Below are positions 9,964-62,964 of a stretch of DNA of 64,000 bases, in pieces. Position 1 is the first letter of the stretch. Every line of letters starts with the position of its first letter. The position numbers were made by a program, and so were the translations under genes. This DNA is from Acidobacteria bacterium 28-1 (GTDB lineage Bacteria > Acidobacteriota > Blastocatellia > Pyrinomonadales > Pyrinomonadaceae): contig MWYZ01000048.1 in the NCBI GenBank assembly GCA_002050365.1, forward strand, positions 1 to 64,000. The letters are read 5' to 3'. Under the pieces are notes generated by a model that had not been told where the DNA came from, did not search any database, and was given only the letters and a program-made list of their open reading frames with translations.

Positions 9964-9968
9964 GGATT

Positions 9969-10148: not shown

Positions 10149-10152
10149 GACA

Positions 10153-10267: not shown

Positions 10268-10317
10268 TCTTCGTATTGAATTTGTAGCCGCTTCTATTCT
10301 GTGGTAAAAATTGTGAT

Positions 10318-10775: not shown

Positions 10776-10780
10776 GGCGA

Positions 10781-10914
10781 AGCCGAACAAGTAGAACCAC
10801 TGCCAGAGGCAGTGGCTTTTCTTAGTCATTGGACGTGAGGGCGCGGGCAGCGACTTTGTTATCGCGTTGTCCGTTACCCATAGCTTGTGTGTATTCGGTT
10901 TCCGCCCCGCGTCA
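10781..10914 (+). repeat. attC site of cassette H, interrupted twice
   Basis: AGCCGAACAAG + inserted hairpin + TCATTGGACGTGAGGGCGCGGGCAGCGAC...CGGTTTCCGCCCCGCGTCA, then the expected R' half is replaced by IS110-related sequence. Confidence 0.75.
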
Positions 10915-11610
10915 GATACTGTGTTGAATGTCAAACTGATTTCACCCATTGCGGGTCAAATGGTTTTCCAGTCTTTAACACTCCATAAGCGAGATGAATC
11001 AGTTTTCGCATCGCCGCTCCGATAACCGCCATTTTGCATTTGCCGCGCTCGCGTAATCCCGAAGCCCATTGTTGAAAAAAGGCACTCCATCGAAGAGCCG
11101 TGAGTGCCGGAAAGTAAAGAGCCTTCCGCAGGCAGGCATTACCGATTTTTGATAATTGAGTGTGTCCGCGCACTGAACTTCCTGAACGCCTTTGACGCCG
11201 AACCAGCCGGGCGTCAGCGGCAACCTGGCGTGCGCTTTTGGATTGCTTAATGTTCACAATTTCGGCAAGTAGCAAAGCGGTTGTCGCCGCGCCGATGCCG
11301 GGAATCGAATCAAGCAAAGCGCTTTTCTGTTTCAGGTCGGGATGATTGTTAATGTGTTCTTGAATCATCTGTTCGGTCTGTTTGATTTGTTCAATCAGGT
11401 AAGCGATGTGTTCTTCGAGACGGGGTCGGACTGCGGCAGTCGAAATGCCGGATGAGAGACGATTTTCTTCCGCGACGCGCCTCTCAATCAGTGATTCGAG
11501 GCGGCGCACCAGTGCTTGCAGTTCGCGTACTTCCAGTGACGGCGGTCTCCACATCGGCGGTTGCTGCGTGAGGCAAAAGCGAGCAATCAGAGCGGCATCT
11601 ACTTTGTCCC
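10915..11610 (-). mobile_element. IS110-family transposase, 5'-truncated
   Basis: ...DKVDAALIARFCLTQQPPMWRPPSLEVRELQALVRRLESL...LDSIPGIGAATTALLLAEIVNI...GNACLRKALYFPALTALRW; catalytic N-terminus absent. Confidence 0.85.
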
Positions 11611-24923: not shown

Positions 24924-26234
24924 CTAATCCTGAATCTTAAACCTTGAATCTTGAACCTTAAATTTTGAGTCTTCACTTTGCCTAATAAACCACAAAACGC
25001 CCGCGCTTGCCGATAAAATTCCCGAAATCACCGTTAGCATTTGCGGGGAAATATAATACACCGCTTCGCTAGCAAAAAAGCTCGAAAGTCCGAAAATCGT
25101 CATCTCCGCACCTCTGTCCAAAGTTGAAATGCGCCCGCGAATGTAATCGGGCAAACTTCTCTGAAACATCGTTTCCTGAACGGCGTATTCCACGCCGACA
25201 ATCGCCCGCGAAACGAATATGAAAATCATAAAAAGCCACAAGCTCGGCATATAACCGGCGATTGCAAATAAAATCCCGTGAACAATCAGCGTCCAGCCGA
25301 TAAACGAATTGTGGCTCGCGCGCCGGTCGAGAACGGTGGAAGTGCGGTAAGCAATCATCATTCCGAGAAAAAGTCCGAAGCCGCTCGCCGTCCAAAGCAG
25401 CCCGACTGCCAAATCGGGATTCCAATTCTCTTTCGCGGCAAAGAAAACGCCGCCTATTCGCTCGAATACAACATTAATTGCTCCGCCGCCGGTCGCCCAA
25501 ATAATGTTCATTATCAAAATCGTCAACGCAAAATGATTCTCGACCGTGTATTTGAAACCTTCTTTTAATTCAGTCAAGAAAGACGCTCTTTGCGTTTCTC
25601 CTGATTCGTAATTCGTAATTCGTAATTCGTAATTGTCTTTTTCCCTTGTCGCTTCTTCGGGAATCAGCCAAACCGAAAAAGCCGAGACTGCAAACGAAAC
25701 CGCGTTAATGATAAACGCCGCTTTATAACCGAAAAACGCAGCCGCAAAACCGCCGAGTGCCGAGCCGAGTGCCATCAGCAAAAAGCGCGACGAAAACATC
25801 AAAGCCGTTCCCGCAAGGAGTCCTTCTTTGCCGGTCAGATTCGGTGTCGTAGCGTTTTTCGCGCCTTCAAAAAACGCGCCGAATATCGAAAGCAAAACGG
25901 TTGCAAAATAGGCAATCCAAAGATTTTCCGCGGTGGTCACAAGAAGAAACATCAGCGCGAAAACGACTCGCACCAAATCCGACCAAATCATCACTTGCCG
26001 CCGCGAAAAGCGGTCAACGAAAGTTCCGGCAATCGGCGAAAAAACGGCGAACGGCAAAAGCCGGCAAGCGAATAAAATGCCCGCCGCCATCGGCGAAGCG
26101 TCCGAAACAACGCGCACTAGTCCCAAGCCCGCGATAAAGTTAAACCAATTGCCGAGTTCCGAAACTATCTGTCCCCAAAGCAGATTACGGAAATTTCGGT
26201 TGCCGCGTAATAATTGCAAGTAAGTTAAATTCAT
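24924..26234 (-). CDS. MFS transporter (enterobactin-exporter/DUF894-like)
   Basis: 12-TM MFS pattern; FNFIAGLGLVRVV, FAVFSPIAGTFVDRFSRRQVMIWSD. Confidence 0.85.
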   Translation of the reverse strand: MNLTYLQLLRGNRNFRNLLWGQIVSELGNWFNFIAGLGLVRVVSDASPMAAGILFACRLLPFAVFSPIAGTFVDRFSRRQVMIWSDLVRVVFALMFLLVTTAENLWIAYFATVLLSIFGAFFEGAKNATTPNLTGKEGLLAGTALMFSSRFLLMALGSALGGFAAAFFGYKAAFIINAVSFAVSAFSVWLIPEEATREKDNYELRITNYESGETQRASFLTELKEGFKYTVENHFALTILIMNIIWATGGGAINVVFERIGGVFFAAKENWNPDLAVGLLWTASGFGLFLGMMIAYRTSTVLDRRASHNSFIGWTLIVHGILFAIAGYMPSLWLFMIFIFVSRAIVGVEYAVQETMFQRSLPDYIRGRISTLDRGAEMTIFGLSSFFASEAVYYISPQMLTVISGILSASAGVLWFIRQSEDSKFKVQDSRFKIQD

Positions 26235-26339
26235 AAAAACGGATAATGGATAATGGATAATGGATAATTACATGAAGTAGAAAACAGAAGAATCAGGAAT
26301 TGTTTTTATTTTCAGTTTTCCATTATCCATTTTCCATTA

Positions 26340-26376
26340 AAAAAGCCGTCAGGCTAAAATCCCGACGGCTTTTTCC
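26340..26376 (-). terminator. Rho-independent terminator
   Basis: AAAAAGCCGTCaggctaaaatccCGACGGCTTTTT, immediately 3' of the enoyl-CoA hydratase. Confidence 0.85.
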
Positions 26377-26396
26377 TTTCGATATAAAATAAATTT

Positions 26397-27200
26397 TCAA
26401 GTTCCCGTAAAATTCGGTTGACGTTTTTCAAAAAATGCCTGCACGCCTTCTTTAAAATCATTTGATTTGCCCGATTCGATTTGTAATCTTTGTTCGAGAG
26501 CGAGCTGCTGCGGCAAATCGTTTGAAAATGTTGCGTTAAGCATTTGTTTGATTCTGCCGATTGCGGCGGTCGGCGCAAGCGCGAGTTTTTTCGCCGTCTG
26601 CAAAGTTTCTTCCATCAAATTTTCGGCTGAAACGATGCGGTTTATCATACCGATTCGCTCGGCGCGTGTGGCGTCAATCGTGCCGCCGGTCATAAAAAGT
26701 TCCGCCGCGAGTTTTTCGCCGACGGCTCTCGGCAAAAAGAAACTTCCGCCGCAATCAGGCGATAAACCGATACGCACAAACGCCTCGTTAAAACTCGCAT
26801 TCTCCGACGCGAAAACAATATCGCAAGCAAGCGCGAGGTTCGTTCCCGCGCCCGCGCAAACCCCTTGCACGGCGGCGACAAACGGAATCGGCACGTCCCG
26901 AATCAGCAAAATTAAATCGTGCAAAGCCTTGAGCGGTTCTTCCAAGGACGCTTCTGTTCTGTCTTCTTTTTTTCCGTTTTCCTGCATCTCACGCAAATCA
27001 CCGCCCGAACAAAACGCGCGACCTTCGCCCGTTAAAACTACGGCTCGCACCTTATCTTCAATCGCTTTCTCGACAGCCGAGCGCAAATCCTTGCTCAGTT
27101 GAAGCGAAAGCGCATTTAAGGCGGCGGGACGATTCATCGTAATAATCGCCACCGATTCGTTTAATTCATATTTGACGGTTTCAAAAGACATAGGATTCAA
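26397..27200 (-). CDS. enoyl-CoA hydratase/isomerase
   Basis: GEGRAFCSGGDLREM, VQGVCAGAGTNLALACDIVFASENASF. Confidence 0.93.
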   Translation of the reverse strand: MNPMSFETVKYELNESVAIITMNRPAALNALSLQLSKDLRSAVEKAIEDKVRAVVLTGEGRAFCSGGDLREMQENGKKEDRTEASLEEPLKALHDLILLIRDVPIPFVAAVQGVCAGAGTNLALACDIVFASENASFNEAFVRIGLSPDCGGSFFLPRAVGEKLAAELFMTGGTIDATRAERIGMINRIVSAENLMEETLQTAKKLALAPTAAIGRIKQMLNATFSNDLPQQLALEQRLQIESGKSNDFKEGVQAFFEKRQPNFTGT

Positions 27201-45402: not shown

Positions 45403-45638
45403 TTTTTGGCAGTGAGCCGGAGAATCAGTTTCCAAATTGATTTCGCCATCATCGAATATGGCAATTCAATCTAAGTGAATAGGGCTATTGCAAAGTCAGA
45501 GTTTGAGAGATTTTATCTATCAGCTATTGCGAAGCGGACTTTGCAATAAGCTTGTTTAAGATACAGTCATTTCTCTACTCAGCTTGACAAGACAAAAAGA
45601 AATTTTTAATCTTTAGATTCGTCTTCGGGCGAGTTTTT

Positions 45639-45713
<75 letters not shown>

Positions 45714-46772: not shown

Positions 46773-49700
46773 ATGACTCTCCCGACAGAAAGAAATTTAA
46801 CCGCCGACCGGCTCGCGCAGTATGTGAAACGCAATCGCTGTGAACGTTTTTTGCGGTTTTCACTTTTTAAATCAGAAGCCGATTCGTTCGCTCGTCGTTA
46901 CGGAGTGCGGCTTGAAACTCTGTCGCCGCTGCTTGCGGAATCCGGGCAATCTTATGAGCGCGAAGTCGTTCGCGAGCTTGCGGCAAACGGCGCGACGGTT
47001 CAGGATTTATTCAACAAACCATCTGCCGATTTTCTCGATACAATCGCCTCGCAAACGACGGGGAAAGTTTTTTATTATCAGGCAAAACTTGCCGGTTCAA
47101 TCGGGCTAATCGAATGCGAAGGCATCGCCGATTTGATTCTAATTGAGAAACTTTCTTCTGATTCTTTCAACGTCTGCGTCATTGACATTAAATCCAGCCG
47201 CCGCGAGACAACGGGCTACCGTTTGCAAGTCGCTTTTTACGCGCGTTTGCTCGAAGAGATGCTTGCTCGCCGAAACTGGCGAATAAACGATTTAAAGGGC
47301 GCGATTCATTTAAAAGGGAAAACTCTTTCTACCGACGCGATAGACACTTTTGAACTTGGGCTTTACGCCGACGAGATTGAACGGCTGGTCGCTGTGGAAA
47401 ATTCCGATGTCGCGCGCGTCGTCAAATCCGCTTTTGCCGACACCGCTTATCATTTGAATTACAACTGCGACGGTTGCCGTTTTAACGCTGCGTGTTTTGT
47501 GCAAGCCGCCGAAACCGAAGATTTATCTTTGATTCCGCAACTGACCGCGACGGAAAAATTAGTTCTCAAAACAGAAGGCTACGACAAATTAAGCAAAGTC
47601 TCCGCGCTTTTTGAATACGGGCAAAAGGAAATGATTTCCGCTGACGCGAGTTCGGGAGATGGTGAAAGGCTTAATAAAAATTGGGCGTTGAGCGGAAAGA
47701 TGCCGATTATCGCCCAACGCGCCCGCGCCGCGCTCCACCGATTTGATAAAACGACTGATTTTCGTTCTTTTATCGTCGGTTCTGATTTCGGAACGCTTCC
47801 CGACACGAACCGTTACCCGGAACTCGTTCGCGTTTTTATTGACACGCAGCACGATTATTTGAACGACCGTTTGTATATGTTTTCGGCAGTCGTCGCCGGT
47901 GCCGCGCTTTCGCGTGAAATCTGCGAGATTGCCGCCGCGCCACCAGACGACGAAAGCGAACAGCAGCTTTTGATTTCCGGCGTTCAGAAAGTTTTGCAGG
48001 CAATCGGCGAAACTGCTGACTCAACGCACGCGCCCGTTCATTTTTATCTTTTCGACCGTCGCAGTCAGGAAAGTTTGAAAGCCGCGCTCACGCGCCATTT
48101 CGCCGCGCTGTGCGCGATTCCGGCTTTTTACGATTTGCTGACCGCTTCGCCGACGCTCTCGCAGCCGATGATTTCCTTTCTGGCGGACGATGTTCAGGCG
48201 CGGCGCAATTTAAAAAATCTCGGACAAAATTTGTATCAGGTAGCGGGCGAGATGAAATTTGACTGGACGGGCGGCGAGCGCAATATAAAAGAACGGTTTC
48301 GCGCTAAAATCTTTGATAATTTTCGCAAGTATTCGCGCTCGGAAGTCGGCGAATTTGCTCCCGCCGAAAGTGGAAAAGATAACATCCGCGACGTTTGGAT
48401 CGAAGCCTCGGCGCGTTTCGGAACGGAGATTCCGCTTGAATACGCTTACGCCGCTTGGGGCGAATTAGAATCGCCGGAAAATGTATCGGACGCAGGGCGG
48501 ATGCAGTTGGAAGGATTTTTAGGAACAACCCTCGAAGAAATGCGCGAACTCGCCGTGCTGCGATGCCGCGCATTGCAGCACATCGAAGAATCATTCGGAT
48601 ACAAAAACCGCGAGATTGAGAAACAGGAACTAAATTTAACGCGACTTCACGAAGTAGAAATTGAACCGGAAGCGGTGCCTTTGAGCCGCGCGATTGAAGA
48701 TTTTCTTTTTCTCGAACATCACGCCAGACGACAAGAGGCTTATTTGTTTTTCGCTCTGCCGCCCGACGTCCGCGCCGCTTCGGGTAGATGCGCCGTCATC
48801 CGCAACGAAGAATTGCGTGAAGAAAACAAACAACTTTTCGCCGAATTTTCGTTTTCCGACGTTAACGGCAACGAGCCTTCCGCCGCCGAACAAAAAATGG
48901 TGCGGTTTCGCGTGGGCGATTGGGTGGTTTTGAACGAACTGCGAAACGAAAACGGAAAATTTCCGTCCGCCAAAAGCATCGTTACCGGACGGCTCGCCAT
49001 TGTCGAAGAGGTAGGCGCGGAAAAAATTGTTTTGAATTTAAATTCGATGTGCAATGCATCGGCTTTTCGTTTCGCGCATCGTCTTTTCAAACCGGTCGCG
49101 GGAAAACTCTACACGATTGACAAGATGCTCGACGATTTCAATTCCGACAAATTTCTCGCCGCGTGTCGGCAGGCGGAATTGACCAATCCGTTGTATCGCT
49201 GGCTGACCGACGCGGAAGAAGGAAAAGCACCACGCCTGATTCGACCTTCACGAAAACGCGCCGCGCAAGCTGTCGCCGCGCTCGCCAATAGCTCCCAACA
49301 GCCGCACAATTTGACCGACGCGCAAAAAGAAATAATCGGGAATTTGTTGGAAGAAAAAGCGTTTGTTCTGCAAGGTCCGCCCGGAACTGGCAAAAGTCAC
49401 ACGCTCGGTTTCGCGGTTCTCGCGCGGATTTTAGCGTTAAAAGTTCAGGGTAAACCGTTTCGCGTGGCGGTTTCGGCGAAAACTCACCACGCCGTGAAAA
49501 TCGCTCTCGGCAGCATTGCCAAACGCGCAAAATTGCTCGTAGAAAATATTTCCGGCGAGCCGATTCTCGCGCCGCTTGCGAATCTCAAAGTTTATAAACT
49601 CTGCCATGAAATGAGCGAAGACATACCCGACGGCGTAACGGCAATCTCGCCCGACGGCGACGAAGATTTAAAAGCCGCCGCGCAATGGGACAAGCTCGAA

Positions 49701-50705
49701 GGCGAAGACGTTTTGATCATCGGCGGAACGCCGGGAATGCTTTACAATTTAATTAAACGCGGGGCGAATCGCGGCAAAAAAGACATCAATTGGGCGGCGC
49801 AGTATTTCGATCTGGTCGTCGTTGACGAAGCCTCGCAGATGGGTTTAGCCGAAGCCTTAACCGCCGCCGCTTTTCTGAAATCCGACGGGCAATTCGTCGC
49901 TATCGGAGACCACCGCCAAATGCCGCCAATCTTAGTGCACGCTTGGGACAGAGAAAGCCGCCGCGATTTGGAACGAATCAAACCACATCTTTCCATCTTT
50001 GAATTTCTCCAAAAATCCGGCTTTCGCTCCGCCGCATTAGATGAATCTTTCCGCATTCCGGCAGAAGTCGCCGAGTTTCTGGACGAACACATTTACCGGC
50101 AGGACGGCGTTAAATTTCACTCGAAAAACCGGCAGCGAATCGCCGCAATAGAAGAATTTGACGAGGAATGGCTTGCCGCGGTCTTCGCGCCCGAACATCC
50201 GCTCGTCCTTCTCGAACACGGCGAAAATCAATCGGCTCACGCCAACGAATTTGAAGCTGATTTGATCGAACAAATCATTTATCTTGCCAAAGCAAAGTTA
50301 AACCTTCACGAAACAGAAGGAATCGGCATCGTCGTCCCTCACCGCGCGCAAAAAGCTCTTTTGCAAACGCGACTTCCGCATCTGGCAAATTCGATTGATA
50401 CGGTCGAAAGATTTCAAGGCGGCGAGCGTGATTTGATTATTGTTTCCGCCACCGTTTCAAGCCGCGATTTCGCCCACGCCGAAATGGAATTCCTGCTCGA
50501 CCCGCGCCGCCTGACGGTCGCCATCTCGCGCCCGAAACAAAAGATAATCGTCGTCGCTTCGCAAACCGTTTTCAATCTGATTCCAAGCAATCTGGACGAC
50601 TATGAACGCGGCGCGCTCTGGAAACATCTGCATCGAGACTGCCGCCAAAAAACATTATGGCAAGGTAAGATTGGAAATCAGACTATTAATATCTTTGCTC
50701 GATAA
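46773..50705 (+). CDS. TM0106-like RecB-nuclease/SF1 helicase fusion (Dna2-like)
   Basis: CVIDIKSSRRETTGYRLQVAFYARLL nuclease motif, CDGCRFNAAC cysteine cluster, LQGPPGTGKSHTLG Walker A, VVVDEASQMGLAEAL, C-terminal VERFQGGERDLIIVSAT. Confidence 0.88.
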   Translation: MTLPTERNLTADRLAQYVKRNRCERFLRFSLFKSEADSFARRYGVRLETLSPLLAESGQSYEREVVRELAANGATVQDLFNKPSADFLDTIASQTTGKVFYYQAKLAGSIGLIECEGIADLILIEKLSSDSFNVCVIDIKSSRRETTGYRLQVAFYARLLEEMLARRNWRINDLKGAIHLKGKTLSTDAIDTFELGLYADEIERLVAVENSDVARVVKSAFADTAYHLNYNCDGCRFNAACFVQAAETEDLSLIPQLTATEKLVLKTEGYDKLSKVSALFEYGQKEMISADASSGDGERLNKNWALSGKMPIIAQRARAALHRFDKTTDFRSFIVGSDFGTLPDTNRYPELVRVFIDTQHDYLNDRLYMFSAVVAGAALSREICEIAAAPPDDESEQQLLISGVQKVLQAIGETADSTHAPVHFYLFDRRSQESLKAALTRHFAALCAIPAFYDLLTASPTLSQPMISFLADDVQARRNLKNLGQNLYQVAGEMKFDWTGGERNIKERFRAKIFDNFRKYSRSEVGEFAPAESGKDNIRDVWIEASARFGTEIPLEYAYAAWGELESPENVSDAGRMQLEGFLGTTLEEMRELAVLRCRALQHIEESFGYKNREIEKQELNLTRLHEVEIEPEAVPLSRAIEDFLFLEHHARRQEAYLFFALPPDVRAASGRCAVIRNEELREENKQLFAEFSFSDVNGNEPSAAEQKMVRFRVGDWVVLNELRNENGKFPSAKSIVTGRLAIVEEVGAEKIVLNLNSMCNASAFRFAHRLFKPVAGKLYTIDKMLDDFNSDKFLAACRQAELTNPLYRWLTDAEEGKAPRLIRPSRKRAAQAVAALANSSQQPHNLTDAQKEIIGNLLEEKAFVLQGPPGTGKSHTLGFAVLARILALKVQGKPFRVAVSAKTHHAVKIALGSIAKRAKLLVENISGEPILAPLANLKVYKLCHEMSEDIPDGVTAISPDGDEDLKAAAQWDKLEGEDVLIIGGTPGMLYNLIKRGANRGKKDINWAAQYFDLVVVDEASQMGLAEALTAAAFLKSDGQFVAIGDHRQMPPILVHAWDRESRRDLERIKPHLSIFEFLQKSGFRSAALDESFRIPAEVAEFLDEHIYRQDGVKFHSKNRQRIAAIEEFDEEWLAAVFAPEHPLVLLEHGENQSAHANEFEADLIEQIIYLAKAKLNLHETEGIGIVVPHRAQKALLQTRLPHLANSIDTVERFQGGERDLIIVSATVSSRDFAHAEMEFLLDPRRLTVAISRPKQKIIVVASQTVFNLIPSNLDDYERGALWKHLHRDCRQKTLWQGKIGNQTINIFAR

Positions 50706-50708
50706 TGA

Positions 50709-50795
50709 CTGAGATGACGTGGCGCAAAACACACGCAAGTTGGATAACCATTCAACGTCGCTGTTTTGCGCTCACGTCCATTGACTTGTTAGATG
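50709..50795 (-). repeat. solitary attC site of GIY-YIG cassette
   Basis: - strand GCATCTAACAAGTCAATGGACGTGAGCGCAAAACAGCGAC...GTGTTTTGCGCCACGTCATCTCA; near-identical core and arms to attC-C/G of the integron. Confidence 0.85.
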
Positions 50796-51733
50796 CGGGT
50801 TAGCCTATCAGCTAAATCCATACAGTGATAGCGGCTGTAAGCGCAAGCTCCTTTCTTCATTAAGCGCAAGTTGAACAACCGCATAGCCGGTATAATTTCT
50901 CTTTGCTGCATAAATGTTTTTGCTGAATCTGCTCCTTGAACTATAAGATTAATTTGGTCTTGACCACCCGGTTCATAGAAATTCTCCGTTGTTTCCAACA
51001 AAGGAAACTTTTCGTGGAGCAGCGACAGGGACTCACCAAACGCTTCCTCAAGGGGTGACAACGCAAGGTGGAATGAAAATTCAAGCTCACCTTCGTAGTC
51101 AAGTGCGGTAAAGACTTCCTGCCAATATATGTTTATGCGTGAGTAAATAGTTACCTTCGGTTGTGAGTAGCCTGGTAAGCATGAACAACCCCAAAAGGAC
51201 AGTTCGCTTCGCAAAGGAGTTGGTATGCCCGCGTGAACGTATTTACGCAAAACATTCATAATCTCATTAGAATAAGGCAAAGCAGCAAAACGCTGGAACT
51301 TTCTGCTATACTTTCGCCGCAACTCCGGGTCAACAACTCTGCTACCGCTAAGGTCAACATAACTTGTGTCCTTCAGCCATCGCTCTTGCTCCTCCGCAGA
51401 CATAATAAGGTCGAAATCAGATTCGCCTCTCGGAATGCTTGTGAACGTGATATTTCGTAAGCGATAGCCTTCATGTTCGAGCATCCATATTAGGGCGCGT
51501 TCTTCCTCATTCAAGTTCTTTTTAGCTACACGCTTAAATCTTATCTTCTCAATGTCGCAGTGAACCTTACGATGCTGAACATAGCGACGAGTTACATCCA
51601 ATGCCTGACCCGCATAAATCTCGCCATCAGAGAATTGAAGAATGTAGAGACCACAACGCTTACCTGACGGAAACAAGTCTGCAATCGAGTCGCGCCCTTG
51701 AACGTGATGTGGTTGGGAAAATCCATCCATCAT
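50789..51733 (-). CDS. GIY-YIG nuclease-domain protein, lone integron cassette gene
   Basis: CGLYILQFSDGEIYAGQALDVTRRYVQHRKVH; stop codon TAA lies inside the attC core ATCTAAC. Confidence 0.85.
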   Translation of the reverse strand: MMDGFSQPHHVQGRDSIADLFPSGKRCGLYILQFSDGEIYAGQALDVTRRYVQHRKVHCDIEKIRFKRVAKKNLNEEERALIWMLEHEGYRLRNITFTSIPRGESDFDLIMSAEEQERWLKDTSYVDLSGSRVVDPELRRKYSRKFQRFAALPYSNEIMNVLRKYVHAGIPTPLRSELSFWGCSCLPGYSQPKVTIYSRINIYWQEVFTALDYEGELEFSFHLALSPLEEAFGESLSLLHEKFPLLETTENFYEPGGQDQINLIVQGADSAKTFMQQREIIPAMRLFNLRLMKKGACAYSRYHCMDLADRLTRI

Positions 51734-51833
51734 TTAAACTTAACTCTTACGTTTGGAAAAAGAAGCATCTAACTTTTAATTGGAGCTAACGAATCTAACA
51801 GCCCCTCGAATTTGTGCCGCACAGAATTTTGAT

Positions 51834-53324
51834 TTACTGCGCTGCCGATAATTCCTGCAAAATAGACTTGAAATTTAACAAACCGGCTTCCAAATTTTCA
51901 ATAATATCTTCTGCCAAAACGTCTGGATTAGGCAGATTATCTAAGTCCGCCAGCGATTTATCTTTGATCCACGTTATATCAAGGCTCGTTTTGTCGCGGC
52001 TAATGATTTTGTCATAACTGAATTTGCGCCATTGCCCGTCGGGGTTTGTTTCAGGATGATAAGTTTCCGAGCGTTTGTGCCGATTTGCCGTATTGTAGCA
52101 ATCAATAAAATCTCGCAGGTCGCTCAATTTCAGGGGATTTTTCTTGAGCGTGTGGTGAACGTTGGTGCGGTAATCGTAATACCAAATTTCTTTTGTCCAC
52201 GGCTCGCTTGAAGCTGGTTTGGCGTCAAAGAAAATGACGTTTGCCTTAACGCCGTGAGCGTAGAAAATTCCGGTCGGCAATCTTAAAATCGTGTGCAGGT
52301 CGGTGTTTTCGAGCAGTTTTTTGCGGACGGTTTCGCCCGCGCCGCCTTCAAATAGAACGTTGTCCGGCACGACAACCGCCGCTTGTCCGGTGGTTTTGAG
52401 CATCGTCTTGATGTGCTGGACGAAATTTAATTGTTTATTGCTCGTCGTCGCCCAGAAGTCCTGCCGGTTGTAGGTTAAATCTTCCTTTTCCTGTTCGCCG
52501 GATTCGTTGGTAAATGTCTGACTGCTTTTTTTGCCGAACGGCGGATTTGCCAGCACATAATCGAAACGCTGTCCGGCGTCGGAAATCAGCGCGTCGGCGG
52601 GCGAGATAAAACTTTCGCTGCCGATGTCGCCGATGTTGTGCAGAAACAAATTCATTAAGGCGAGCCGACGGGTCGAAGCGACAATCTCGTTGCCGAAAAA
52701 GGTTTTGAATTTGAGAAATTCTTTTTGTTCTTTGTCGAGCGAATAATTATCAACCAGAAAATCATACGCGCCGAGGAAAAATCCGCCGGTTCCGCACGCC
52801 GGGTCAGCGATGGTTTTCGACGGTTCGGGGCGAACGCATTCGACCATTGCGCGAATCAATGCGCGCGGCGTGAAATATTGTCCCGCGCCGCTTTTCGTGT
52901 CTTCGGCGTTTTTCTCTAAAAGTCCTTCGTAAATCTCGCCTTTCACGTCCGCGCCCATCACGCTCCACTGTTCTTTGTTGATCATATCAATCAACTTGTA
53001 GAGCTTTGCCGGGTCTTGAATCTTGTTTTGGCTTTTGGTGAAAATCTGTCCTAAGATTCCTTTCTGCTGTCCGAGTTCGCGCAAAAGGTGCGTGTAATGC
53101 GTTTCGAGTTCTGCGCCGCGTTTTGTCGTCAGGCTTTCCCAGTTGTATTCCGCCGGAATCTGTAAATCACGGTTATACGGCGGCTTTGAATATTCGTCCG
53201 CCATTTTCAAAAACAGCAGATAGGTAAGCTGTTCAAGATAATCGCCGTAAGAAACGCCGTCGTCGCGCAGAGTGTTGCAGAACGACCAGACTTTTGAAAC
53301 GATGCTGTTTGTATTTGCGTCCAT
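51834..53324 (-). CDS. hsdM: type I restriction-modification DNA methyltransferase (M subunit)
   Basis: GQYFTPRALIRAMVECVRP, ADPACGTGGFFLGAY, VLANPPFGKKS. Confidence 0.96.
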   Translation of the reverse strand: MDANTNSIVSKVWSFCNTLRDDGVSYGDYLEQLTYLLFLKMADEYSKPPYNRDLQIPAEYNWESLTTKRGAELETHYTHLLRELGQQKGILGQIFTKSQNKIQDPAKLYKLIDMINKEQWSVMGADVKGEIYEGLLEKNAEDTKSGAGQYFTPRALIRAMVECVRPEPSKTIADPACGTGGFFLGAYDFLVDNYSLDKEQKEFLKFKTFFGNEIVASTRRLALMNLFLHNIGDIGSESFISPADALISDAGQRFDYVLANPPFGKKSSQTFTNESGEQEKEDLTYNRQDFWATTSNKQLNFVQHIKTMLKTTGQAAVVVPDNVLFEGGAGETVRKKLLENTDLHTILRLPTGIFYAHGVKANVIFFDAKPASSEPWTKEIWYYDYRTNVHHTLKKNPLKLSDLRDFIDCYNTANRHKRSETYHPETNPDGQWRKFSYDKIISRDKTSLDITWIKDKSLADLDNLPNPDVLAEDIIENLEAGLLNFKSILQELSAAQ

Positions 53325-53336: not shown

Positions 53337-54095
53337 TTATAAAATTTTGTTTAAGACATATTCTTCAAACCATGCAGGCACGTCCTCTTGTTCAATTACG
53401 ATGTCTTCGCCATCTGTTATTTCTGCAATCCAGATTGATTCTTCTCCTGAATTATCAAAAATATATGCGCGATTGGTCAGTTTGACGGCATCCAAAAGCA
53501 AGTCTAAGGAACGATAATAGCGAGATTCGATTTTATCTTTCGGGACATCATGCCCGCCTGTTTTTACCCGCTCTTCAACACGCGAAATATTAATCAGCGG
53601 GTCGTCTGTCGCTACATAATACAGATAATTTCGGTAACCTTTTTGACGCGATTTCCTCAAAAATTCCAATTTGTCCGGCGAAGACATTACGGTTTCAAAG
53701 GAAAAAGATTTTCCGTCTTGCATAAGTTTTTGCCGGATAAAATCAGCCGCGACAGATGCAAAATACGAATTTATCCCTGTCTCGGAAAAATCCAGCTTAT
53801 TATCGTGAAAATTTAATTTTTCAGCATCTTCGGCAAGATTGGCTTTTATTAAAAAAGTTGAAGTTTGAAAAAACCGGAGTGTTTCTTTTTCCTCAGGCTC
53901 GATGTCAAAGTTGTGAAAATCTAAAAAGCCCGTTCGTTTTATTTCAGCTTCTATTTCATCCGGGTTAATAAAAACGCCCAGCCAGTCCTGATTCATATCG
54001 GCGATTTGAGCCTTAATTGTGCTTTTCCCGGAGCCGTTTGGTCCGGCAAACATTCTGAGGCGTGGAGGAGCGGGCAGATCAGCGGGCAAATTCAT
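53337..54095 (-). CDS. zeta-toxin-like P-loop ATPase/kinase
   Basis: PRLRMFAGPNGSGKSTIKAQI, FINPDEIEAEI, FSFETVMSSPDKLEFLRKSRQKGY. Confidence 0.85.
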   Translation of the reverse strand: MNLPADLPAPPRLRMFAGPNGSGKSTIKAQIADMNQDWLGVFINPDEIEAEIKRTGFLDFHNFDIEPEEKETLRFFQTSTFLIKANLAEDAEKLNFHDNKLDFSETGINSYFASVAADFIRQKLMQDGKSFSFETVMSSPDKLEFLRKSRQKGYRNYLYYVATDDPLINISRVEERVKTGGHDVPKDKIESRYYRSLDLLLDAVKLTNRAYIFDNSGEESIWIAEITDGEDIVIEQEDVPAWFEEYVLNKIL

Positions 54096-54316
54096 TTAAT
54101 TTTGATTATCGTGCCTTTTTGCATTTTGACGCGCGGCGGAAGTTTCTTAACGGTGCTGCTCGTGCCGTCAGATTCGACACGGCGGATTTCTCCGTTTTGC
54201 GAAATTAAAACGCTTCCCGAAATTAATGCTTTGCGGTGAGCCGCGCGAGTTCCGAATTTTGCCAGTTGGGGAATTTGTTGTTCTGTTTCCTGAACGGTTA
54301 ATTTGCTGTTTGCCAT
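54092..54316 (-). CDS. small protein overlapping the zeta-like gene (candidate antitoxin)
   Basis: 74 aa; 4-bp overlap with 53337..54095; MANSKLTVQETEQQIPQLAKFGTRAAHRKALISG. Confidence 0.6.
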   Translation of the reverse strand: MANSKLTVQETEQQIPQLAKFGTRAAHRKALISGSVLISQNGEIRRVESDGTSSTVKKLPPRVKMQKGTIIKIK

Positions 54317-54339
54317 AACATCTTTAATTATACATTTCT

Positions 54340-55566
54340 TTATTGCGAATTTACCAATTTTCCTTCAAACGCCTGTTTCAAAATGCTCTGGCGCAGCGAT
54401 TCGGATTGCGCGAGCGATTGATTGATTGTTTCTTCCAATTTTTCGCAGACGCTCAGACGGCTTTCGATTTCTTCAACGATGCGTTGTTGTTCTTCAGGTG
54501 TTGGCGGAATTGGAACTTCAAATCCTCGCATTGCTTTTAACCCAACATTTTTAATTGTACTTCCTGTCGCCTCTTTATTTGCGTAGCTTTTAAAGCGGTT
54601 CGTAGTTAAGCAATACCTAATAAACCGTTTATCTATTTCGTTTAAGACATTGAAGTAACAAGCACTTTTACCTAGAATGACTTTCTCATTGTTATAGAAT
54701 GCAGTATTGCCAAGCGTCCCGTTTATCGAAACAAAAACTGTTTTATCTGTTAAATTCTTTTTGTGTTTTTCAAATTCAACTTTAGAAACTCTTTTGGTAT
54801 TTTCTTTAATCTCAATTTTTCCGTCTGTTAAATTATTTCCATTTATAAAAAAATAGTCTCCATCGGTTGAATATTTTGGTGTGCCGTGTAATCCGTCACC
54901 TAATATAGAAGATATTTCCTTTATTGTTTTCCACTTCCAACCGTCCGGCAATTCGCCTTCGCTGACGTTTTCGTTGGTCAGTTTGCCTTCAAACGCCCAT
55001 TTCAAGACGGCTTGGCGGTAGGTTTTTAATTGACGGGCGGCGGTTTTGAGGCTTTCGCGTCCCGCGTCTAATTCCGAAAAGAGTTCTTCGATTTTGGCGA
55101 CAATCCGTTCTTGTTCGGCAAGCGGCGGGAGATAAATCGGATAATCGCTGATTTCTTCATAAGAAATTCTCGGTCTATCGCCAGAAGTTTTTGCATTTAC
55201 GAATCTAACAAAATCTCGTGAATGCAAAATATACTGCAACAAATCTGGGGTGAAAATTGGCAAACATTCAAGAATTATAAATTCACCAGAGCAAACTCCA
55301 TCAAATTCGGCTTTATAGACTTTATTTAAATATGGGCGCATTCTGCCGTATAAAACTTGACCTGACTTAAAACGATTGCCAGCACTTTTAAAATCCTTGA
55401 AGTCATATAAAAATGCGGGCTTCAATCCATTTGGCTCAATACAATCCATTCCGATAAACTTCGCGTCAGGTGCATCTGATGGCAATGCTTTAAGAGTTTT
55501 CTTAGTTACAACTTCGCTTAACTTTGAGACTTCCCAATTTTTCGGTAATTCGTTTTTGTTTATCAT
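54340..55566 (-). CDS. hsdS: type I restriction-modification specificity subunit
   Basis: Two TRD halves; IYLPPLAEQERIVAKIEELFSELD and VPIPPTPEEQQRIVEEIESRLSVCEKLE. Confidence 0.94.
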   Translation of the reverse strand: MINKNELPKNWEVSKLSEVVTKKTLKALPSDAPDAKFIGMDCIEPNGLKPAFLYDFKDFKSAGNRFKSGQVLYGRMRPYLNKVYKAEFDGVCSGEFIILECLPIFTPDLLQYILHSRDFVRFVNAKTSGDRPRISYEEISDYPIYLPPLAEQERIVAKIEELFSELDAGRESLKTAARQLKTYRQAVLKWAFEGKLTNENVSEGELPDGWKWKTIKEISSILGDGLHGTPKYSTDGDYFFINGNNLTDGKIEIKENTKRVSKVEFEKHKKNLTDKTVFVSINGTLGNTAFYNNEKVILGKSACYFNVLNEIDKRFIRYCLTTNRFKSYANKEATGSTIKNVGLKAMRGFEVPIPPTPEEQQRIVEEIESRLSVCEKLEETINQSLAQSESLRQSILKQAFEGKLVNSQ

Positions 55567-55583
55567 TGTGTGCCGCTATCAGA

Positions 55584-55643
55584 GTCCGACAAACTTCAGT
55601 TTGTCGCTCGCTCATACGTTCGACAAACTGAAGTTTGTCGGAC
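55584..55643. repeat. nested palindrome between hsdS and hsdR
   Basis: GTCCGACAAACTTCAGTTTGTCG ... CGACAAACTGAAGTTTGTCGGAC. Confidence 0.85.
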
Positions 55644-55645
55644 AT

Positions 55646-58423
55646 CTATGCCGCGAGAGCTTCGTTTATTTCTTCGATAATCGGATTCATCTGCTCGCCG
55701 AAAAGCTGATACATTTTGCCCAAACCTCCGACGGGCGCGAACGGTTCGTATTCAAAATCCGACTCTTCGACGTGAAACGAAGTGGCGATGTGGTCTTTTA
55801 TCATTCGCAGCCACTGCATCTGTTCTTCGCTGAATTTCAGCGCGCCGGATTGTTTGCCGAAAACCCAGTTTTGAAAATTGCGGTCAATTGTTTTGCCGTA
55901 ATCAGTTAATTTTTCGTCAATGCCCGAAACTTTCCTGACCAGCGCGACGAGCGCGGTCAGTTCGGTTTTCGCCGCGCCGCCGCTTTCGCCGAGTTCTTCG
56001 TAAGCGCGCCAGACGTTGAGCGGCGCGATGCGCGGGCGTTCGGTCTTTAACAGGTCGCACAAATCTCGAATCATTTTATAAGTCAATTCGCGCCTGTGAT
56101 ATGGCTGACCGTAAAAAATCTGCAAAGCCGTAATCTCGTCGCGGTGTTCGGCAATCCACGCTGCAAAATCGCTGACTATCTCGTTTGCCTGCGCGTTTGT
56201 TTCCTCGCTCCAGCCCGCTTTTATGAGCCGGTCGGGATTGATAATGTCAATTATCTGGTCGAGACGGCGGCGCACGTTTTCGACGTATTCGTTAAATTCG
56301 CCGGTGAAAATCTCAGCCGCCTGTTCGATAATCTGTTCGTGTTTTTCTTTAACCAGGCGTTCGATTTCGTCGGCGGCGAGATTCGGATTTTCGCTTTTAA
56401 TTGTCGCTTCAATTTCTTCAAGCGTGTCTGGATCGTAAGCGTTGAGCAGAGCTTTCGCTATTTCGCTCGCGGTTTTGTCCTGCGCTTTGGCTTTGAACTG
56501 TTCGCGCTCGCGTTCGCTGATTTGCCGGTCGAGCCGGACAAGACGGCTGGCGATACTGGAAAACGTATCGGCATCGCGCACGCCGACGGCAACCGCGCCG
56601 AGAAGGTCTTTGAGCGCGACTCCGGGCGCGCGTTCGAGCGGTCGGCTGTCGGTCTTACAGCTTCGTGTTACGCCAACCGCGTCAACAATGACGAAATGAT
56701 CTTTGGTCAGTCGGGCGGTCGGCGTTACCTTTCGCAAATCATCGAGCGTGATGGTGCGCGTGCCGCGTCCTTTCATCTGCTCGAAATAATTGCGGCTTCG
56801 CACGTCGCGCATAAACAAAAGGCATTCGAGCGGGCGCACGTCCGTTCCCGTCGCAATCATATCAACCGTGACGGCGATGCGCGGATAATAATCGTTGCGA
56901 AACTGCGTCAAAATTGATTTCGGGTCTTCTACGGTTTTATAAGTAACCTTTTTGCAAAAACTGTTTCCCTCGGCAAACTCTTCGCGGACGATGTTTATAA
57001 TGTCGTCGGCGTGGCTGTCGGTCTTGGCAAAAATTAAAGTTTTCGGCACTTCAAATTCTTTTGTTTTTTCGTCAAAACGGTCGGGAAACATTTCCGGCAG
57101 TTTTTCCTTGAATGTGCGAATGACCATTCGCATCTGGTTCGGATTAACCACGGATTTATCAAGCTGCGCGTTTGTATAAGCCGTGTCTTCATCTAGCAGC
57201 TGCCAGCGTTTTTTACGCGACAATTTTTCGCGGAAATCAACGTATTCGCCTTTCCAAACAATCGCGCCGTTTCGCGTGATGTCGGTTTCGATCTCGTAAT
57301 TCGTAAAGCCGACGTTCACGCCGTCAATCACGGCTTGCTCGTGCGTGTATTCGCTGACGACATTTTGATTGAAATAGCCAAACGTCCGATTGTCCGGCGT
57401 TGCCGTCAAACCGATCTGAAAAGCGTCGAAGTATTCCAGAACCTGTTTCCAGAGATTGTAAATCGAGCGATGACATTCATCAATCACGACGAAATCGAAA
57501 AACTCAATCGGCAATCTGTCGCTATATTCGACCGGCTGCGGGGTTTTCGCCTGCCAGAAAATCTCGTTCGGGTTCGTCTCCTCGCTCGACTCGTCCAATT
57601 CGCGCCCGCGCAAAACCGAATAAAGCCGCTGAATAGTGCTGATATAAACTTGATTGTCGGTCGGTATAAAACCCGACTTTAAGCGATGCACGCCGTAAAG
57701 CTCTGTAAATTTGCGGTTATCGTCGTTCGGCAGATAAGCCATAAATTCCTGCTCGGCTTGCTCGCCCAAATTTTTCGTATCAACGATAAACAAAATCCGT
57801 TTCGCGTTCGTGTATTTCAAAAGCCGGTAAACGAACGTAACCGCCGTGTAAGTTTTTCCCGAACCGGTCGCCATCTGCACGAGCGCGCGCGGGCGGTTTT
57901 CCCGAAATGATTTTTCGAGATTTGTGATTGCGTTAATCTGGCAATCACGAAGGCGTTCCGGCGGCAGTGCGGGCAGTTTCTGAAAACTGTTCCGCAGAGT
58001 GTCGGATTGCTTCAGCCACTCACGGAAAGTTTCCGGCTTGTGAAAGGAAAAGATGGGGCGCGAGCGCGGCTTTTCGTCGCGGTAATCGGTAAAACGCGTC
58101 AAATCTCCGGTGCTTTCATAGACGAATGGCAGCGCATCGTTATTAAGATATTTCAGTTTCGCGTTGGCATATTCGGTGGATTGATCTTCGACCTGCGTCA
58201 ATTGAAAGCCTTTGTCTTCCGCTTTCGCTTCGATAATTCCGCACGGCTTTTTATCAACAAACAAAACATAATCCGCCGGTCCGACATCGGTTTGATACTC
58301 ACGAACGGCAACGCCGAGACGTTCGCCGAGATTGATTTTCTTTTTATCCTGAACCGCCCAGCCGCAAGCCCTGAGCTGCTTGTCTATATTATCTCGCGCA
58401 AATTGTTCGGGATTCTGATTCAT
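55646..58423 (-). CDS. hsdR: type I restriction endonuclease subunit R
   Basis: QMATGSGKTYTAVTFVYRLL, VVIDECHRSIYNLW, LTATPDNRTFGYF; N-terminal nuclease region (GIIEAKAED). Confidence 0.96.
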   Translation of the reverse strand: MNQNPEQFARDNIDKQLRACGWAVQDKKKINLGERLGVAVREYQTDVGPADYVLFVDKKPCGIIEAKAEDKGFQLTQVEDQSTEYANAKLKYLNNDALPFVYESTGDLTRFTDYRDEKPRSRPIFSFHKPETFREWLKQSDTLRNSFQKLPALPPERLRDCQINAITNLEKSFRENRPRALVQMATGSGKTYTAVTFVYRLLKYTNAKRILFIVDTKNLGEQAEQEFMAYLPNDDNRKFTELYGVHRLKSGFIPTDNQVYISTIQRLYSVLRGRELDESSEETNPNEIFWQAKTPQPVEYSDRLPIEFFDFVVIDECHRSIYNLWKQVLEYFDAFQIGLTATPDNRTFGYFNQNVVSEYTHEQAVIDGVNVGFTNYEIETDITRNGAIVWKGEYVDFREKLSRKKRWQLLDEDTAYTNAQLDKSVVNPNQMRMVIRTFKEKLPEMFPDRFDEKTKEFEVPKTLIFAKTDSHADDIINIVREEFAEGNSFCKKVTYKTVEDPKSILTQFRNDYYPRIAVTVDMIATGTDVRPLECLLFMRDVRSRNYFEQMKGRGTRTITLDDLRKVTPTARLTKDHFVIVDAVGVTRSCKTDSRPLERAPGVALKDLLGAVAVGVRDADTFSSIASRLVRLDRQISEREREQFKAKAQDKTASEIAKALLNAYDPDTLEEIEATIKSENPNLAADEIERLVKEKHEQIIEQAAEIFTGEFNEYVENVRRRLDQIIDIINPDRLIKAGWSEETNAQANEIVSDFAAWIAEHRDEITALQIFYGQPYHRRELTYKMIRDLCDLLKTERPRIAPLNVWRAYEELGESGGAAKTELTALVALVRKVSGIDEKLTDYGKTIDRNFQNWVFGKQSGALKFSEEQMQWLRMIKDHIATSFHVEESDFEYEPFAPVGGLGKMYQLFGEQMNPIIEEINEALAA

Positions 58424-58661: not shown

Positions 58662-59261
58662 ATGCAGGGAAACGCCGAAAAAATTCAAAAACTTCTCGAA
58701 GAAAACAACATCGTGCGCTCAAGCGATTTGACGAAAATCGGCGTGCCGCTCATTTATCTATCGCGCCTGGTCGAAAAAGGTGAACTGTTAAAAATCGGAC
58801 ACGGAGTTTACACCAGGACAACCGCGAATTTTAACGAAAATCAGAGTTTGCTGGAAGCGATAAATACGATTCCGAACAGCGTCGTTTGTTTGCTTTCCGC
58901 CTTGCGCTTTCACGAATTGACGACGCAAAATCCGTTTGAGATTTGGTTGGCAATCGAAGCAAAAGCGTGGCGACCAAAAACGCAGATTCTACCGCTCAGA
59001 CTAAATTATTTTTCCGGCAAAGCCTTTACCGAAGGCATCGAAACGCGCGACATCGAAGGCGTCACGCTGCGCGTTTATAATCCGGCGAAAACCGTCGCCG
59101 ATTGTTTCAAATACCGCAACAAAATCGGTCTCGATGTCGCCCTCGAAGCCCTGCGCGACGCGTGGCGACAGAAAAAAGCGACAATGGATGAACTCTGGCA
59201 TTACGCCAAAATCTGCCGGATGTCGAACGTTATGCACCCGTATCTCGAATCTCTTGTATGA
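58662..59261 (+). CDS. AbiEi-family antitoxin (type IV TA-like)
   Basis: RSSDLTKIGVPLIYLSRLVEKGELLKIGHGVYTR...RVYNPAKTVADCFKYRNKIGLDVALEALRDAW. Confidence 0.85.
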   Translation: MQGNAEKIQKLLEENNIVRSSDLTKIGVPLIYLSRLVEKGELLKIGHGVYTRTTANFNENQSLLEAINTIPNSVVCLLSALRFHELTTQNPFEIWLAIEAKAWRPKTQILPLRLNYFSGKAFTEGIETRDIEGVTLRVYNPAKTVADCFKYRNKIGLDVALEALRDAWRQKKATMDELWHYAKICRMSNVMHPYLESLV

Positions 59262-59293
59262 CCGAACCGAAAAAAGATATTGCCGCTTATTGA
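59258..59293 (+). pseudogene. AbiEii toxin 5' remnant (11 codons)
   Basis: ATGA overlap with AbiEi stop; MTEPKKDIAAY* resembles the AbiEii start (...KNIAAS...). Confidence 0.5.
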
Positions 59294-59302
59294 TAATTAC
59301 TT

Positions 59303-61915
59303 ATGAACGAACAAATCCAATACATCACGTCTTTGGCAAAGCAGTATAAAATTTACGCCGAACAGCCGGAAGAATTACTCGCCGCTCTTAACGAACTTCC
59401 CGAAACGACCGTTAAGACAATTTATGACGAATACGGAAGCGGCGAGCGGTTTCAGCCGGTTAATGTGCTTCGGGCTGAAGCGGCGCGGGAGCTTCTCAAC
59501 GGCGAAGAATTAAGCAAGGAAAAAGTTGAAGAAATAAAAGCGAAAATTCGCGCTAAGGATTTGGATTATTTCTCGCATCTGCCGGCTGAGATTTTGTCGG
59601 GACTTGAAAATTACGCCGTCGGGAAACGTGATATTTTTGCCAACTGGCAGAAAGACTGGAATGTATTTCACACGTTTTTCTATCGCGGCAAAACAAAAGA
59701 AACCGTCCAGATTTATCTCGAACAAATTTGCAAACGCCTGCTCGATGATCTGCAGCTTAGCGATTATAAATTTCACACGGTGGATTTTCAGGGCGCGAAT
59801 AATTTTGGTTCAGATTACTGCTGGCTCGCGCTTTATCCGCAGAATAAACCTTCACACAAAGATGCCCACCAGTTTTTTCTAAGATTTGAAGCGGCGGTTG
59901 AAGCCGGGCAGGTGGAAGGCTCAAATATCGGATTTCATCTCCACGATACGCGGCGCGTCGAAACTTATGAGGAAATCTTAAATATCCTGAATGAACTGAA
60001 ACCGAAAATAATCAGTTTGAATCAAAAAATCCGCAGCTTTTTCAAATTCGCGCCCGGCGAACAGGCAAAGTATTGGGAGCCGTTTAAGAACGAAGGCATC
60101 GCCGCTTTAAGTTACAACAATTTTCCCATCGAAGATATTTCGGAACTTAATTCACGCGAAGAATTGAATGTGGCAGCCGGTTTGCCCGCTGAAAGTCAAT
60201 CGAATGAAACATGGAATTTATGGCTTTTCAAAACAGCCAATGTCGGCGATGTAGTTTTTGCCAGCAAGGGCGTTTCCATTTGTCTCGGCATCGGTATTAT
60301 CAAAGGCGCATATTATTACGACGAAGACGCTGACGAATACAAACACCGGCGACAGGTCAATTGGATCACCGATAAAGTTTATCAATATACGGCTAATTCA
60401 TTAAAGAATTATAAAACGCTGTTTCGTCCCGATACTTTTAGTCCAACATTGGTCTCTAATTTTATTTTGAGCGAATACGCGCGGCTTTACCCGGACCTAA
60501 AAGCGATTTTCGATGAGCATAATTTGACCTACACGGAAATTGAGCCAAATGAATTGCCGGAAATTTCGCCTGAGATTGAAACGAGCGAAACGGAAAGAGA
60601 TGAAATAAATTTCTGGTGGCTCAATGCCAATCCGAACATCTGGAAACTCAGCGATTTTAAGGAAGGCGAGCGGCAAACTTACACTTCGCGCAACGAAAAA
60701 GGAAACAAACGGCGCGTCTATAAATATTTTGAAGCGGTCGAGCCGGGCGATTTGGTCATCGGCTACGAAAGCACGCCGACCAAACAGATTAAAGCGATTT
60801 TGGAAATCACCAGACCGCTTCATCAGACAGAAGCAGGTGAAGTAATCGAGTTTGAATTGATTGAAAAACTCGAAATTCCCGTTTTCTGGAGCGAACTGCA
60901 AAACAACGCCGGACTAAAAAATTGCGAAGTTTTTATCAATAATCAAGGCAGTCTTTTCAAGCTCGCCGAGGACGAATACGACATCATCCGCGAAGTTATT
61001 GATTCCAAAAACATCGCGCAGGAAGCGAAACTCGGCTCACTTGAAATCAAACCTTATTCCTTTCGAGACGATGCGGACAAACCTTTTATTTCTGAAGCGG
61101 ATTTTCTGCAAACGGTCGAACTTCTGCGGCGCAAAAAGAACATCATTCTGCAGGGCGCGCCCGGCGTCGGGAAAACCTTTATCGCCCGCAAAATCGCTTA
61201 CGAGCTGATGGGTTTTAAGAATGACGCAAACATTGAAATGGTGCAGTTTCATCAATCCTACAGTTACGAAGATTTTGTGCAGGGTTTGCGTCCCTCAAAA
61301 AGCGGTTTTGAACTCAGAAACGGCGTTTTTTATACTTTCTGCCAGCAAGCCTTGGCGCATCCTGAACGTCAATTTTTCCTTATCATTGACGAAATCAATC
61401 GCGGAAACTTGAGCAAGATTTTCGGCGAATTGATGATGCTCATCGAAGCCGATAAACGAAGCGAAAAATTTGCGGTGAAAATGACTTATTCGGAAGACGA
61501 AGCCGACCGTTTTTTCGTCCCGCCGAATCTTTACATTATCGGTACGATGAACACGGCGGACAGAAGTTTGGCGATTGTTGACTATGCCTTGCGCCGACGT
61601 TTTGCGTTCATCAATCTACAGCCGGAATTTGGCGAGAAATTTGTCGAATTCTTACAAAACGGCGGCGTTTCAAATCCGACAATTGAATTTATTCGAGTTT
61701 CGGTCGGAAAAGTGAATCAAGAAATCGCGGGCGACATTAATCTCGGCGGCGGTTTTCAAATCGGGCATAGTTATTTCTGTACGAAAAACGGCGCGGGCAG
61801 CGAAACAGACTGGCTCAGGGAAATTTTCACATTTGAAATTAAACCGCTGCTCGAAGAAATCTGGTTTGACGACGCGGCAAAAGTTGAAGAAATGATGCGC
61901 ATTTTGAATGCTTAG
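59303..61915 (+). CDS. mcrB: McrB-like AAA+ GTPase with EVE domain
   Basis: INFWWLNANPNIWKLSDFKEGERQTY (EVE); NIILQGAPGVGKTFIARKIAYELMG, FHQSYSYEDFVQGLRP, GTMNTADRSLAIVDYALRRRF. Confidence 0.93.
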   Translation: MNEQIQYITSLAKQYKIYAEQPEELLAALNELPETTVKTIYDEYGSGERFQPVNVLRAEAARELLNGEELSKEKVEEIKAKIRAKDLDYFSHLPAEILSGLENYAVGKRDIFANWQKDWNVFHTFFYRGKTKETVQIYLEQICKRLLDDLQLSDYKFHTVDFQGANNFGSDYCWLALYPQNKPSHKDAHQFFLRFEAAVEAGQVEGSNIGFHLHDTRRVETYEEILNILNELKPKIISLNQKIRSFFKFAPGEQAKYWEPFKNEGIAALSYNNFPIEDISELNSREELNVAAGLPAESQSNETWNLWLFKTANVGDVVFASKGVSICLGIGIIKGAYYYDEDADEYKHRRQVNWITDKVYQYTANSLKNYKTLFRPDTFSPTLVSNFILSEYARLYPDLKAIFDEHNLTYTEIEPNELPEISPEIETSETERDEINFWWLNANPNIWKLSDFKEGERQTYTSRNEKGNKRRVYKYFEAVEPGDLVIGYESTPTKQIKAILEITRPLHQTEAGEVIEFELIEKLEIPVFWSELQNNAGLKNCEVFINNQGSLFKLAEDEYDIIREVIDSKNIAQEAKLGSLEIKPYSFRDDADKPFISEADFLQTVELLRRKKNIILQGAPGVGKTFIARKIAYELMGFKNDANIEMVQFHQSYSYEDFVQGLRPSKSGFELRNGVFYTFCQQALAHPERQFFLIIDEINRGNLSKIFGELMMLIEADKRSEKFAVKMTYSEDEADRFFVPPNLYIIGTMNTADRSLAIVDYALRRRFAFINLQPEFGEKFVEFLQNGGVSNPTIEFIRVSVGKVNQEIAGDINLGGGFQIGHSYFCTKNGAGSETDWLREIFTFEIKPLLEEIWFDDAAKVEEMMRILNA

Positions 61916-61920
61916 AATCA

Positions 61921-62964
61921 ATGTCAATTCCAATCGAAAACATCTATTACCTGCTTTGTTACGCGTGGAATAAGCTCGACGAAAAAGAGCGCGTGGCAGT
62001 TTCGGCGGAAGATTACACGAAGCTGCTCGATTTACTGGCAAAAGTGTTGATTAACTCAACACGAATTTTGCTCAAACGCGGCATTGACCGCAATTACATT
62101 GATATAACAACCGAATTTGCCGGTGTCAAAGGTAAATTGGAACTCAGTCAAACAATTAAAACTCAGTTGCTCTTAAAACAAAAAACCGTTTGCAGCTTTG
62201 ACGAATTTTCCTCAAACGTTTTAACTAATCAAATTTTAGTCGCTACATTAAATCGTTTGATCAGAACTGAAGGTTTAGATACGAATCTAAAAAGCGAAAT
62301 CAAAAATCTTCTGTGGCGTTTTGATGAAATTCAGCCGATTGAACTGAAAGGCACAGATTTCGGCAAGGTCAGACTGCACCGCAATAATAAATTTTATAAT
62401 TTCATTCTCAATGTTTGTCATCTGATTTACGAAAACAGTCTTCTGTCGGAAAAAACCGGCGATTGGCATTTCAACGATTTTCTGCGCGACGAAAGAAAAA
62501 TGAATCAATTGTTTGAAGCCTTTCTGCGAAATTTTTACGCTATCGAACAAAAGAATTTTAAGGTCAGAAGAGAAAACATCTACTGGCAATTTTCCTCAGA
62601 CGACAAGGGAAATTCGCGGTTTCTCCCGCTGATGCAAACTGACATCACGCTTGAAAACGAAACTGCCAAAATAATCATTGACGCAAAATTTTATAAAGAA
62701 ACTCTCAAATCAAACTACGGCGCGGAAAAGATTACATCGGCAAATCTGTATCAACTTTTCAGTTACCTGCTCAATCAGCGCAATAGCGATCCAAAGACTC
62801 AAACAGCGACCGGAATTTTGATTTACCCGACAATCGAGCAAGATTATGATTTACAGTTTCGTTACCAAAACCACAATGTTCTAATCAAAACCGTCAATCT
62901 AAACAGCGATTGGCGAAGCATCGAATATAGATTAAAGGAAATAATTAATCTGCACTTCTGTTAA
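61921..62964 (+). CDS. mcrC: McrC-like 5-methylcytosine restriction subunit
   Basis: IPIENIYYLLCYAWNKL...; C-terminal LMQTDITLENETAKIIIDAKFYKETL nuclease motif. Confidence 0.92.
   Translation: MSIPIENIYYLLCYAWNKLDEKERVAVSAEDYTKLLDLLAKVLINSTRILLKRGIDRNYIDITTEFAGVKGKLELSQTIKTQLLLKQKTVCSFDEFSSNVLTNQILVATLNRLIRTEGLDTNLKSEIKNLLWRFDEIQPIELKGTDFGKVRLHRNNKFYNFILNVCHLIYENSLLSEKTGDWHFNDFLRDERKMNQLFEAFLRNFYAIEQKNFKVRRENIYWQFSSDDKGNSRFLPLMQTDITLENETAKIIIDAKFYKETLKSNYGAEKITSANLYQLFSYLLNQRNSDPKTQTATGILIYPTIEQDYDLQFRYQNHNVLIKTVNLNSDWRSIEYRLKEIINLHFC

Follow-up and report, generated by a model that had tools for sequence, protein, structure and literature searches.

Integron cassettes located away from an integrase are known in several forms. 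A single attC site lacking integron integrase (SALIN), of which 115 have been described in Shewanella genomes (PMC9229058), consists of one cassette and its attC away from the integrase. By attG insertion (Loot et al. 2024, Nat Microbiol, cited in PMC12901181 and PMC12444791), a cassette enters a G^TT site other than attI or attC. The CALINs of Xanthomonas (PMC12444791) are intI-less cassette clusters at conserved loci. A cassette encoding a GIY-YIG protein is known from a class 4-like integron of Aeromonas (PMC10609294). According to the IntegronFinder 2.0 paper, integrons are described with typically one attI beside intI, and attI sites outside class 1 are poorly described.

The window, which is the whole 64,000-nucleotide stretch of Acidobacteria bacterium 28-1 analyzed here (source genome, G000), contains a complete cassette in a defense island (Table 1), and this cassette is best read as a SALIN at an attG-like site. 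Comparison with the described systems revealed that (i) as in SALINs, which are already known, there is a single attC, the nearest other attC is more than 4 kb away, and no intI is close by; the window case adds a demonstrable 5' boundary, copies in arrays, and a non-attI target; (ii) as in attG insertion, the target is neither attI nor attC, and in contrast to the laboratory work on attG, so far as the citing papers convey it, this is a natural Acidobacteriota case seen in sequence data; (iii) as in the Aeromonas integron, the cargo is a protein with a GIY-YIG domain, the likeness being one of domain, but the Aeromonas cassette lies inside an integron array, whereas the window cassette is off-integron; and (iv) like the Xanthomonas CALINs, intI-less cassette clusters of this genus lie at positions common to several species, but here they are headed by a conserved attI-plus-promoter element, none being mentioned for Xanthomonas in the part of PMC12444791 available.

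Table 1. Features of the cassette, its landing site, and the integron of the window (window positions).
Feature	Positions	Strand	Remarks
Solitary integron cassette	50706–51772	-	complete (1,067 bp), taken up as one unit; homology with array copies begins and ends at the same points
Cassette attC	50706–50796	-	72.5 bits with a model that excludes it; hairpin
R'' GCATCTAAC	50788–50796	-	part of the cassette attC
Cassette start TTAGATGC	51765–51772	-	complementary to R''
Cassette ORF	50789–51733	-	314 aa; GIY-YIG-like N-terminus, C-terminal part without assignment
Left target half	51773–51833	-	ends CCAATTAAAAG^; spacer after hsdM, without attI element
Right target half TTATCGAGC	50697–50705	-	holds the helicase stop codon (+ strand)
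PD-(D/E)XK and SF1 helicase	46773–50705	+	1,310 aa; a relative of Mokosh (MkoA)/DpdJ-type defense helicases
HsdM, type I restriction system	51834–53324	-	directly upstream of the cassette gene, same strand
Zeta-toxin-like ATPase, HsdS, HsdR	53337–58423	-	remaining restriction operon
AbiEi-like gene, EVE-McrB, McrC	58662–62964	+	remainder of the defense island
intI pseudogene	4999–5945	-	internal stop and frame change
attI of the window integron	6012–6103	+	TTGACT-17-TATAAA promoter-like stretch, TTCAGCAGAATACAAAG^TT
Cassette array of the window integron	6218–10932	+	attC at 6218, 7920, 9106, 9312, 10151, 10812

The preliminary description had recognized an off-integron GIY-YIG cassette at 50709–51772, with an attC 3' of the ORF and a matching 5' start. 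These elements were all recovered; the boundary at 51772 holds, and the opposite one is corrected to 50706. The start TTAGATGC, which fits TTRRRY..., pairs with the R'' of its own attC, GCATCTAAC, at 8 of 8 positions, and the window holds 4 exact occurrences of GCATCTAAC, where 0.21 would be expected. An attC covariance model was trained on 22 other sites from the source genome and one congener, with the window site left out; it nevertheless assigned this site an E value of 3e-15 in the 323 kb of loci searched and of 3.8e-14 in the whole genome. The single-stranded site folds into an attC hairpin (z about -4 relative to shuffles). Score and hairpin stability together place the site well past chance expectation. 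The unit thus has an attC with hairpin and R'' and a start complementary to R'', and it is also found at other integron positions. The exception is the 3' junction (50706/50705), which reads A^TT instead of G^TT: the terminal cassette base is A, and the conserved base there is G. Cassette membership stands despite this, because the base is not defining and may have mutated after insertion; given A^TT, however, present-day mobility of the cassette is doubtful.

The 314-aa protein has three relatives within the genus. A copy with 88% protein identity is the third in an attC array of the source genome (G000:C50:60821–61762), and another also lies within an attC array in the congener Acidobacteria bacterium 28-9 (G002:C43, MWYY01000013.1). 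In the third (G004:C145), the frame is disrupted and the attC decayed. DNA homology among the intact copies extends from TT(A/G)GATGC to the end of attC, with the same ends in G000:C50 and G002:C43, and beyond these ends the window flanks are unrelated to the array flanks. The window ORF is a mosaic relative to the G002 copy: identity is 98.7% over the first 450 nt and 98–100% across the final coding stretch and the greater part of attC, and about 70–82% in the middle between these near-identical ends. The diverged ORF middle (within 50789–51733) between nearly identical ends, attC included, is seen in the comparison with loci L015 and L014. Such a mosaic demonstrates that homologous exchange between copies occurs, and an ordinary defense-island gene could accordingly have been brought here with its attC by homologous recombination or by another element, with no integrase acting at this locus. 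We regard this as very improbable, since the homology ends exactly at both cassette boundaries, the pattern expected of site-specific integration rather than of homologous exchange. Repetition of cassette sequences within a draft genome also raises the question of an assembly chimera; a false join would then be required at both ends, each exactly on a cassette boundary, and the other genomic copy is just 88% identical, so that this explanation has hardly any likelihood.

The cassette fills a short interval between convergent genes, with 0 bp left on the helicase side and 61 bp on the hsdM side. Joining the flanks gives ...CCAATTAAAAG^TTATCGAGC..., in which the helicase stop TAA is retained. 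A GTT secondary site had been proposed here; the target reads AAAAG^TT, but the A^TT at the 3' junction means that a perfect GTT is not present on both sides. No second attC was detected at the site by the attC model applied to the whole genome, and the attI model (R2, described below) gave no match at the cassette 5' end (51772) even at E 10; the reading of the site as a decayed attI was therefore rejected. A tRNA gene (45638–45709) precedes, by about 1 kb, the helicase at the edge of the defense island.

The hsdR-S-M operon, 72–86% identical outside hsdS (HsdM 80–86%, HsdR 72–74%), is also found in other genera, where the cassette gene does not accompany it, and the helicase occurs elsewhere with neither the restriction operon nor the cassette. 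The exact empty site, which the preliminary description proposed looking for, was found neither in relatives nor in viral contigs: helicase relatives were absent from the genus, full-length ones elsewhere being 46–53% identical; in hsdM relatives of other genera (80–87%), similarity is lost immediately beyond the stop codon; and the exact joined pattern was absent from the viral contigs. Among the genomes searched, only this one has the hsdM-cassette-helicase junction.

We attribute this arrangement, with a probability of roughly 0.87, to the off-integron (attG-like) insertion of a free cassette by an integron integrase. A free circular cassette carrying the GIY-YIG-like gene would have been inserted at the non-attI site AAAAG^TTATCGAGC, in the narrow space that separates the helicase gene from the convergent hsdM. 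This would have spared the helicase stop and left the cassette gene behind hsdM in the same orientation, as the last gene of the hsdR-S-M operon, where read-through could express it. A later G to A change at the 3' junction would have erased the conserved GTT triplet. As 5'-GNT-3' is the conserved minimal motif (PMC10127599), the loss of the triplet would probably impair re-excision, and the cassette can probably no longer be excised and is probably locked in place. Three points weigh against attG-like insertion: no exact empty site was found, the junctions rest on a draft metagenome assembly, and the A at the 3' junction needs an assumed later mutation. The claimed delivery off-integron into a defense locus is the best-supported reading, in view of the array copies, of flanks unrelated to those of the arrays, of the lack of an attI before the cassette, and of the restriction operon and the helicase each being found elsewhere without it.

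The integrase responsible is less certain. The intI locus reported 40 kb away is present, and the attI of its integron scores 72.3 bits with model R2, but the intI is a pseudogene; delivery by the window's own integrase is thus unsupported as stated, the gene now being broken. Contig C72 of the same genome encodes an intact IntI (G000:C72:86691–87623; 315 aa; 454 bits, cut-off 265), which makes action in trans possible. This integrase and the window remnant are 54% identical and represent two lineages in one genome, with different attI and similar attC sites. The decay of the window intI also fits another history, in which an array or integron once present here lost its attI, integrase, and all cassettes but this one; degenerate lone attC sites elsewhere in the genome and the word GTTAGATTC, a possible old cassette start 26 bp upstream, point the same way. 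Against this, the cassette flanks meet the neighboring genes directly or nearly so, with no remnant of attC or attI, and the locus is outside all orthologous attI sites; we therefore consider such a history unlikely.

The decayed G004 copy (L016, G004:C145, about 25752–26642) also lies at a non-attI site, in the order zinc-ribbon gene, ACAAG^TTAAATGC, fur-like regulator gene. The orthologous intergenic region in six congeners is empty or holds an unrelated gene, without cassette, attC, or attI. That this copy and the window cassette stem from the same insertion was rejected, the flanking genes being different. With two independent insertions of the same cassette family at non-attI sites, a one-off accident becomes less likely.

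The cassette protein scored 15.6 bits (E 0.02) against Pfam PF01541, below the cut-off of 22.6, and we therefore designate it GIY-YIG-like only. Residues G28, Y30, Y40, G42, R49/R50, E86, and N94 are invariant in three homologs, down to 52% identity; the protein thus carries the GIY...YIG motif with the conserved R, E, and N, and its nuclease activity is putative. The predicted structure has a mean pLDDT of 50. Searches for phage relatives found none, and plasmid relatives were distant only (24–38% identity). The dN/dS ratios of about 0.15–0.19 between the window ORF and the other two intact copies, and of 0.12–0.19 across intact copies, indicate past selection on the protein.

The attC covariance model detected about 88 sites in the source genome and scores more in congeners, and upstream of many cassettes that have no intI close by there is a conserved element, about 150 bp long. 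This element comprises, in order, a AATTCGGCATAA...TTATGCCGAATT-type palindrome, the promoter-like stretch TTGACT-17-TATAAA, ATTCGGTATAA, and, where the cassette starts, TTCAGTAGAATACAAAG^TT; in true integrons, the same element is the stretch from intI to the first cassette. The attI model R2 was trained on 14 such elements, and start/R'' pairing and synteny are independent of it. A census of ten congeners with R2 gave at least 74 matches at E 0.01, and the loci examined in them hold at least about 61 attI elements, mostly without a nearby intI; these counts are lower bounds, as limited candidates were scored per genome and all genomes are drafts. The elements are located on G005:C1, C7, and C37, on G000:C50, C67, C23, C63, and C11, and in G002, G004, and others (L112–L170). 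Other genera of the family have at least 1–5 each. Where the R'' of the first attC was readable, the cassette start lay exactly at the attI element in 28 of 37 cases; in 2,000 trials, shuffled pairing gave on average 3.5 such cases and never more than 12.

In the near-complete congener G005, a copy of attI heads 15 of 19 cassette clusters and intI, itself disrupted, is present at 1. The window cassette looks like an exception to this apparent local rule, by which intI-distant cassettes lie mostly at dispersed attI. Eleven attI positions, one of them the intI locus, are orthologous in two to four species, with upstream flanks 71–88% identical up to the element and cargo mostly without detectable similarity between species. 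In one case, L148 (G003:C150:22570–22716), attI is tandem: the second unit, of 146 bp, is identical to the intI-adjacent attI of G003 and is inserted in another attI with the cassette-like ends TT...AAAG, an indication that attI, too, can be mobilized by the integrase. Three attI elements (G005:C1:556188, G000:C50:36975, and G002:C72:7072) have no detectable attC in the 5–6 kb examined and are possibly empty docking sites. N-terminal intI fragments of about 30–44 codons lie beside attI in L146, L159, and L161, on the cassette side in L146 and L159; given these fragments, some attI elements may derive from integrons that have since been lost. At G000:C9:24889, C20:35722, C28:13317, C49:8592, C57:22230, and C61:81551, degenerate attC sites stand alone, with no convincing cassette start to match them.

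On balance, we lean toward a distributed integron, in which up to about 20 promoter-bearing attI sites per chromosome, mostly far from intI and at fixed inherited positions, would be reloaded with differing cassettes through one or two trans-acting integrases, attI itself being spread by the integrase. A search for dispersed or orphan attI found nothing relevant among the texts covered, which included few subscription papers and no preprints, and the system appears to be a variant absent from the literature searched.

The window cassette offers a clear case in nature of integron cargo that has escaped to a defense island and probably become fixed there, a route described in laboratory studies of attG sites. 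The dispersed attI setting matters more than the cassette itself and appears the more valuable lead. If true, many inherited attI docking sites would explain integrase-less cassette clusters and suggest cassette expression at many loci, and the dispersal of attI would be directly testable.
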